The notes under the pieces: generated by a model
Databases searched by the model: none
Seen by the model: only the letters and a program-made list of their open reading frames with translations
Told to the model about the DNA's origin: nothing
Source: a virus
Strand: one strand, 5' to 3'
IMG/VR virus record: IMGVR_UViG_3300036795_000112
Span: 1-24,563 of that record
DNA length: 24,563 nucleotides
Shown here: in pieces, positions 1 to 10,927 of the stretch
Numbering within the stretch: the first letter of the stretch is position 1
How the letters are laid out: every line of letters begins with the position of its first letter
Position numbers and translations under genes: made by a program

Positions 1-510
1 GACAGTGCGACTCTTGTTGTCGCCGGCATGTTCGGGCACGCGAGCGCTGGCATGGGAACGACCGCGTTCCTGCTTCTCCCCGAACAGCACCCAGTCGGCA
101 CTGATCCCCGCCCGGTGCAGCTTCGCCAGCGCAGCCAGGTCCGGTGCGAGCGCGTCGGTCTCCCAGAGCTGCAGCATCTCGACCGGGACGCCCAGCTCGG
201 CGGCGAACTCCTCGCGGGTCTGCTCGCGGTCGAGCCGGACGAAGGCGATTCGCTGGCCGTAGCCGGCAAGCGCGGCGGGGGGCGCCGCCTGGCCGGGAAT
301 CGTCGAGCCCACCGGAGCGTATAGCTCTGCCTGAGGCACCCCCAGCGCCTTGGCGAGCGCGGCGGCGAAGTTCCGGCTGACCCCGCGCTGGCCCAGCTCG
401 ATCTTGCTGAGCGTGGGCGGCTGGATGCCGGACGCGCGACTCAGATCCGCCGAGGATATTCCCCTGGCAAGCCGCAGCTCGCGCACCCTGCTTGTTGCCT
501 GATCGACCAT
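1..510 (-). CDS. Prophage repressor with two XRE-type HTH domains (CI-like), 3' end cut by window edge
   Basis: The reading frame is open from ATG at 510 to the left edge, giving 170 codons without a stop. The first HTH (about residues 6-60) contains the core ISSADLSRASGIQPPTLSKI. A second XRE-like HTH follows at about residues 80-140, with REEFAAELGVPVEMLQLWE and then ISADWVLFGE. Two-HTH proteins of this kind act as phage repressors; a C-terminal domain beyond the edge cannot be judged. The gene diverges from a Cro-like gene, and the 100 bp between them carry three copies of one operator, one abutting this start codon. No Shine-Dalgarno precedes the ATG, so the transcript may be leaderless as for lambda cI from PRM. 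The repressor role is inferred from fold and position. Confidence 0.85.
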   Translation of the reverse strand, partial: MVDQATSRVRELRLARGISSADLSRASGIQPPTLSKIELGQRGVSRNFAAALAKALGVPQAELYAPVGSTIPGQAAPPAALAGYGQRIAFVRLDREQTREEFAAELGVPVEMLQLWETDALAPDLAALAKLHRAGISADWVLFGEKQERGRSHASARVPEHAGDNKSRTV

Positions 511-527
511 ATAGCCAACATGGCTAA
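511..527. promoter_or_regulatory. Operator O1 of the repressor/Cro switch
   Basis: TAGCC-AACAT-GGCTA at 512-526 is a perfect 5-bp inverted repeat. It abuts the repressor start codon and shares GCCAA-N3-GGCT with the two other sites in this interval. Its position suggests autoregulation of the repressor. Confidence 0.7.
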
Positions 528-548
528 GGCCCATTGGCGCGGCCGTCG

Positions 549-565
549 ATTGCCAAGGTGGCTAC
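549..565. promoter_or_regulatory. Operator O2 of the repressor/Cro switch
   Basis: TTGCC-AAGGT-GGCTA at 550-564 is an imperfect copy with one arm mismatch. Its centre is 38 bp from O1 and 32 bp from O3, so the three sites lie close to multiples of a helical turn. Confidence 0.6.
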
Positions 566-572
566 AAGACGG

Positions 573-600
573 TTGACGTAATAGCCAAAACGGCTATAGC
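573..600 (+). promoter_or_regulatory. Early rightward promoter (PR-like) with operator O3 inside its spacer
   Basis: A -35 box TTGACG (573-578) and a -10 box TATAGC (595-600) are separated by 16 bp. The best operator, ATAGCC-AAAAC-GGCTAT (581-597, 6-bp arms), fills the spacer and touches the -10, so bound repressor would exclude RNA polymerase. Transcription should start near 607, only about 7 nt before the Cro-like ATG at 614. Confidence 0.7.
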
Positions 601-613
601 GTCCCGCCCCACC

Positions 614-856
614 ATGACCCTTGAGAAATTCCGCAGCGATCACGGCCTCTCCTTCGAGCAGCTCGCCGAGCTGCTCGGGGTGGAGGGACAGAACCCAGCC
701 CGCACCGTCCAGCGCTATGCGCGGCACGAGCGCATCCCGCCGTGGCCGATGATGCGTCTCATCGAGACCAAGACCGAGGGCAAGGTCACGCGGGCCGACT
801 TCCCGGACGCTCCGGTTCGGCCAGGAGCCCAGCCACCGCAGGACGCCGCGGCATGA
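614..856 (+). CDS. Cro-like HTH regulator, first gene of the early operon
   Basis: An 80-aa protein that is essentially one helix-turn-helix: SFEQLAELLGV (about residues 13-23), then a recognition-helix region NPARTVQRYARHERIPPWP, and a short Ala/Pro-rich tail. This matches Cro/YdaS-type phage regulators, which bind the same operators as the divergent repressor and favour lytic growth. It is the first gene behind the promoter at 573-600. There is no clear Shine-Dalgarno and the predicted 5' leader is about 7 nt, so it may be translated from a nearly leaderless mRNA. Its stop overlaps the next ATG (ATGA). The fold is a confident call; the Cro role rests on position. Confidence 0.75.
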   Translation: MTLEKFRSDHGLSFEQLAELLGVEGQNPARTVQRYARHERIPPWPMMRLIETKTEGKVTRADFPDAPVRPGAQPPQDAAA

Positions 857-10711: not shown

Positions 10712-10927
10712 TCAGGCCGCCGGTTTCAGCCTCTCCATCCCCTCCAGCGCATGCCGCGCCTCCGGCACCGCCAGCAGCCGGATCAGCCGCGCCTCCGGGT
10801 CGCACAGCCGTCGCTCGCCGGCCTCCCAGGATCCCCAGGTGCGGAGCGCGACGCCGCACAGCCGGGCAGCCGCTGCCTGGGTCAGGCCCAGGCTTTGGCG
10901 GAGGGTGCGGATTTCGGTTGGGGTCAT
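10712..10927 (-). CDS. Small XRE-family HTH regulator of the leftward cassette
   Basis: A 71-aa protein that is one Cro/CI-type HTH: IRTLRQSLGLTQAAAARLCG, then VALRTWGSWEAGERR, and a helical end (ARLIRLLAVPEARHALEGM). Resembles short XRE regulators such as those in HigA-like or accessory operons, but without a visible toxin partner. It is the last of three leftward genes. The dyad pair at 11608-11642 upstream of that cassette is its most likely target (inference). Confidence 0.8.
   Translation of the reverse strand: MTPTEIRTLRQSLGLTQAAAARLCGVALRTWGSWEAGERRLCDPEARLIRLLAVPEARHALEGMERLKPAA

Follow-up and report, generated by a model that had tools for sequence, protein, structure and literature searches.

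The window analyzed here is the whole stretch of DNA, a 24,563-bp virus record with a pair of divergent regulatory genes and the switch between them at its left edge. Its tyrosine-type integrase shares 50% identity with the enzyme of Komagataeibacter phage phiKM1 and 49% with the one of Acetobacter phage phiAP1, and a terminase and other phage genes are also encoded. The integrase similarity, together with the terminase, identifies a temperate phage, most likely one with an Acetobacteraceae host. The features of the switch are as follows:

1..510, minus strand: CI-like repressor P0001; ATG at 510, incomplete at the contig end; HTH_3 at the N-terminus and a further HTH-like region
512..526, no strand: operator O1; perfect palindrome TAGCCA-ACA-TGGCTA, beginning 2 nt upstream of the repressor ATG
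517..522, minus strand: predicted repressor -10, CATGTT; lies at the O1 center and ends 6 nt before the ATG
550..564, no strand: operator O2; TTGCCA-AGG-TGGCTA, one mismatch; center 47 nt from the repressor start
573..578, plus strand: Cro-side -35, TTGACG; assigned from the sequence and from the TTGAC placement in homologs
582..596, no strand: operator O3; TAGCCA-AAA-CGGCTA, one mismatch; within the Cro-side promoter spacer, covering the first two -10 bases
595..600, plus strand: Cro-side -10, TATAGC, after a 16-nt spacer; CATAGC (L121), CATAGT (L126), and CACAGT (L125) stand at the corresponding place
607..613, plus strand: predicted 7-nt leader without a Shine-Dalgarno, its start placed 7 nt after the -10
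614..856, plus strand: Cro-like HTH protein P0002, 80 aa; HTH fold model, 50% identity to the L017 homolog

Two other genes of the window are worth recording. The C-terminal part of an ORF at 2492-3160 matches ribosome modulation factor (PF04957, E 5e-5, under the cut-off), which is odd for a phage early gene. A small HTH protein at 10712-10927 (minus strand, opposite to the neighboring genes) gives weak MqsA and Aca2/YdiL-type matches and could be an Aca-like regulator.

P0001 matches HTH_3 with an E of 2.9e-17, its PHROG matches are transcriptional regulators and repressors, and its start at 510 is backed by the same start in two homologs (L126 and L017). An S24 domain, also known from CI, is present in the homologous repressors of L121 and L122; the C-terminus of the window repressor lies beyond the contig end. 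The AlphaFold2 model of P0002 is a four-helix HTH (mean pLDDT 87) whose fold neighbors include P2 C, YdaS of CP-933P, and N15 Cro, none of them significant (no PDB hit at E <= 0.001). The best PHROG matches of P0002, all weak, are again transcriptional regulators and repressors, and the YdaS family model (PF15943) scored 14.6 bits against a cut-off of 30 (E 0.029). With HTH_3 in P0001, the HTH fold of P0002, three operators, and an integrase and terminase in the same window, the locus classifies as a divergent CI/Cro-type switch. It is not classified as a lambdoid OR region proper, since P0002 gave neither a Pfam match above the cut-off nor a significant fold match in the PDB.

A preliminary description of the window had placed three copies of GCCAA-N3-GGCT between the divergent HTH genes. 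Indeed, GCCAANNNGGCT has three exact matches in the window, at 514, 552, and 584, and three copies were obtained in 0 of 100 shuffles. The operator unit is better described as a 15-bp palindrome, TAGCCA-N3-TGGCTA (TAGCCANNNTGGCTA), the three copies having 0, 1, and 1 mismatches. A third-order Markov model predicts 0.007 operator-like sites per window, and two sites within 100 bp occurred in 0 of 300 simulated windows; thus, chance is excluded as the origin of the operators. O1 does abut the repressor ATG, as described, and O3 does lie in the spacer of the TTGACG/TATAGC promoter, with the added overlap of the -10; the position of O3 in the promoter spacer is repeated in homologs. The switch had also been called unusually compact. 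This is wrong: the start codons are 103 nt apart in the window, 62-154 nt is typical of the family, and the layout is the norm there.

Both -10 hexamers of the window are weak, TATAGC matching TATAAT at four of six positions and CATGTT at three, and a strict sigma-70 scan found no promoter in the window switch, TATAGC failing it. Transcription starting about 7 nt downstream of TATAGC would yield a 7-nt leader, which agrees with the earlier proposal that the Cro-like mRNA begins about 7 nt before its ATG. This predicted leader, and the TTGAC-ATG distance of 41 nt, are the longest among the switches with a TTGAC. On the other side, the repressor mRNA is predicted to be strictly leaderless because its -10-like hexamer ends 6 nt before the ATG. 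Of the proposal that both genes are leaderless, therefore, the repressor half stands as a prediction, and the Cro-like gene is better termed near-leaderless. Neither gene is preceded by a Shine-Dalgarno, as had been noted: the anti-SD pairing energies are +0.7 kcal/mol (Cro-like gene) and -1.5 kcal/mol (repressor), compared to -6 to -10 for most other phage genes.

Close-relative scans of viral and genome collections with P0001 gave no match, and the sole hit for P0002 alone (L004) was rejected as a chance match within another gene. Scanning of viral contigs for operator pairs yielded L017, which has four operators, a repressor with 52% identity over 66 residues, and a Cro-like protein with 50% identity. 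Many operator-pattern hits in other genomes were tandem repeats or chance, L017 being the only true homolog among those closely inspected. Profile searches recovered distant Cro-like homologs in viral contigs. With one Acetobacteraceae genome taken as the center, such homologs were also recovered in 39 of the 398 genomes drawn from its family and in 30 of the 385 drawn from its class. A phylum-wide search recovered 2 of 399 genomes, and one of its loci (L191) was not a switch. Since almost nothing was gained outside the class, the switch family appears to be centered on Alphaproteobacteria. No plasmid match to the Cro-like gene was found. A switch was counted where a divergent HTH gene lies close upstream of a Cro-like homolog. 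After removal of near duplicates, 40 switches, including the window, were retained; these approximately 40 non-redundant switches have a common design and come for the most part from Acetobacteraceae and other Alphaproteobacteria. Many of the 40 are akin to each other, so the counts given below are not independent events.

The shared geometry is most evident on the Cro side. Exact TTGAC was counted in the 110 nt preceding each of the 40 Cro starts, and 26 of its 27 occurrences lie 31-41 nt before the Cro ATG (26/40 switches), compared to a mean of 0.5 and a maximum of 4 in shuffles. Strictly leaderless genes with 16-18-nt spacers would have the TTGAC at 34-36 nt; thus, Cro-side leaders of about 0-7 nt are predicted. 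On the repressor side, TTGAC at the Cro-side distance is present in only 2/40 switches. The TATAAT-match profile of the 40 switches peaks exactly 6 nt before the repressor ATG (2.82 vs. 1.69, sd 0.26, over all offsets), and at this offset 18/40 switches have A at position 2 and T at position 6, a combination found in at most 7 at any other offset. In the group in which O1 abuts the repressor start, the -10 hexamer is the operator center itself, CANNNT (CATGTT in the window; CATAAT or CATTAT in L121, L125, L126, and L127).

The operators follow the same pattern. Between the start codons of the 40 switches, 82 CCANNNTGG cores were found vs. 13.5 expected. The cores prefer two distances from the repressor start, about 9 nt and about 43 nt, and a zone 17-25 nt upstream of the Cro start; the register 4 nt from the repressor ATG is seen in 11/40 homologous switches. 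At least three cores are present in 15/40 switches, and three clear operators are not found in every homolog. In most members having a second core (L017, L120, L122, L127-L130, L145, and L189), it is centered 42-47 nt from the repressor start, close to the activation position of lambda OR2 at PRM, and O2 of the window is a candidate site for repressor self-activation. The geometry was tested on newly fetched homologs, nine new loci with a switch-type Cro homolog from a later search of the order: TTGAC is 34 or 37 nt from the Cro ATG in eight of the nine. Five of the nine are near relatives, so these amount to perhaps five independent cases.

The lack of a Shine-Dalgarno extends across the approximately 40 homologous switches. 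Mean anti-SD pairing is -1.9 on the Cro side and -2.1 on the repressor side, compared to -2.3 for shuffled sequence and a reference of -5.4 for 96 annotated genes of the Acetobacteraceae phages phiKM1 and phiAP1 (p about 1e-8 and 1e-7); one homolog, L167, is an exception and has a Shine-Dalgarno. Lytic SAR11 phages and comparable viruses (L106, L108, and L116-L118) encode Cro-like homologs with a plain Shine-Dalgarno, e.g., AAGGA or AGGAG, and no divergent repressor was found for these homologs. Thus, absence of the Shine-Dalgarno goes with the switch, not with the protein. L119 likewise belongs to the SAR11 (Pelagibacter) phages and similar viruses that have a Cro-like homolog with no divergent repressor detected. 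In HTVC203P, the Cro-like homolog adjoins a nuclease and a single-strand-annealing gene.

Several known systems resemble the window switch in part. Lambda OR combines three operators, divergent CI and Cro, a leaderless cI transcribed from PRM, and a second operator at the activation position; the window shares with it the three operators, the divergent CI/Cro-type genes, and the placement of the second operator. Lambda cro has a leader with a Shine-Dalgarno, and the lambda operators are unrelated in sequence to TAGCCANNNTGGCTA. Unlike in lambda, the operator center in the window is itself predicted to provide the repressor -10. The cI/cro region of the telomere phage PY54 is likewise a divergent CI/Cro-type pair, and by 5' RACE both of its mRNAs start at the AUG (PMC4488713). 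PY54 Cro binds only a single 16-bp operator and apparently does not repress its own promoter (PMC4488713), whereas the window has three like operators across both promoters; the protein sequences and the host group also differ. In CP-933P of E. coli O157:H7, PaaR2/YdaS are separated by a 97-bp gap, the repressor gene is leaderless, palindromes lie over both promoters, and a low level of repressor activates its own promoter (PMC8630535). The short gap, the leaderless repressor (predicted in the window), and the palindromes overlapping both promoters are common to the two loci, but CP-933P has 18-bp palindromes with another half-site, its repressor heads a toxin-antitoxin operon, and YdaS is not recognizably homologous to the window Cro-like protein. 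The 33-34 immunity region of mycobacteriophage BPs likewise pairs a repressor gene with a divergent Cro-like gene, and an operator lies between the -35 and -10 of PR, but it has two operators of another type and its immunity is integration-dependent (PMC4557955). Leaderless mRNAs are not rare in Alphaproteobacteria; they make up 7% in Methylorubrum (leaders of 0-9 nt counted), and 119 leaderless transcripts are recorded in Zymomonas.

The weakness of the two -10 hexamers and the negative sigma-70 scan would also fit a real switch whose mRNAs start farther upstream from unrecognized promoters and carry an unstructured leader lacking a Shine-Dalgarno, in which case neither gene is truly leaderless. 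Leadered genes without a Shine-Dalgarno do exist in bacteria. The fixed TTGAC distance, both in the 26 switches and in the later loci, and the single-offset peak of the repressor -10 profile make such upstream starts improbable, as does the closeness of the two genes, with O1 and O3 occupying both promoter positions.

The role of the small HTH protein can also be read differently. No family model naming P0002 above cut-off was found, so the three operators might serve the CI-like repressor only, with P0002 acting at other sites as an activator or excision regulator of the CII/Cox type. This is unlikely: homologs differ in their operator sequences, yet the protein next to these operators remains one HTH domain, its top PHROG matches, although weak, are regulators and repressors of transcription, and N15 Cro and YdaS are among its fold neighbors. 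The weak YdaS_toxin match, the presence of CP-933P YdaS among the fold neighbors, and the similar leaderless divergent layout of CP-933P (PMC8630535) could instead suggest a toxin-antitoxin or YdaS-type pair, in which a YdaS-like toxin or regulator is restrained by its divergent partner and which is no immunity switch. We consider this highly improbable, because the Pfam YdaS match stays under the cut-off, the gene occupies the cro position in a phage with integrase and terminase, and homologous partner proteins have S24 domains like CI. Moreover, YdaS of CP-933P itself works as a Cro-like regulator (PMC8630535).

Thus, the region very probably serves a temperate phage of an acetic-acid-type bacterium as its immunity switch between lysis and lysogeny, with three like operators, a repressor predicted to be leaderless, and a Cro-like mRNA with a predicted leader of about 7 nt. 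In the lysogen, repressor bound at O3 and O2 would shut the Cro-side (lytic) promoter, and at O2 it would assist RNA polymerase at its own weak promoter, which has no -35. At a high level, the repressor would also occupy O1 and its own synthesis would stop. The Cro-like protein would bind the same operators, chiefly O1, and shut off the repressor; either protein at O1 would cover the repressor -10 and start codon. Since the repressor mRNA would begin directly at its AUG and the Cro-like mRNA would have a leader of about 7 nt, ribosomes would translate both without the help of a Shine-Dalgarno, probably through 70S-type initiation at the mRNA 5' end. With operator, promoter, and start codon locked together, there would be no room for a ribosome site.

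The two-sided leaderlessness might itself be a selected, family-wide device, a proposal that we regard as doubtful. Repressor, polymerase, and ribosomes entering at the 5' end would then contend for the same place, and the choice between lysis and lysogeny would respond to the translation state of the cell. If true, the operator center would double as the repressor -10 and fix the start codon, and the switch would sense the 70S or initiation-factor balance, unlike a Shine-Dalgarno-driven switch.

The literature searched (open-licence papers) yielded no description of the switch family, of its common geometry, or of an operator center serving as the repressor -10. Since similar switches are already known (PY54 and CP-933P PaaR2/YdaS), the family is a widespread new variant and not a new category. 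Leaderless phage repressors have so far been known singly, in lambda cI, PaaR2, and PY54; here, about 40 switches of Alphaproteobacteria, with differing operators, show the same operator-promoter-start codon lock and lack a Shine-Dalgarno on both sides. Why phage regulators are leaderless is an old question, now approachable by comparison and simple reporter swaps. For prophages of this switch class, the family also supplies a rule by which start codons and operators can be annotated.

A distant relative of the switch is present in a phage clone from human faeces (L107, 2241-2501), with a Cro-like protein that aligns at 36-42% identity and CATAGCC/GGCTATG palindromes. Head-to-tail arrays of CCANNNTGG palindromes with fixed spacing and up to 16 copies are found in several unrelated genomes (Gammaproteobacteria, Firmicutes, and others); the spacing is 23 bp in L034, L058, L070, L095, and L023, 27 bp in L044, L083, L085, and L089, and 21 bp in L090.
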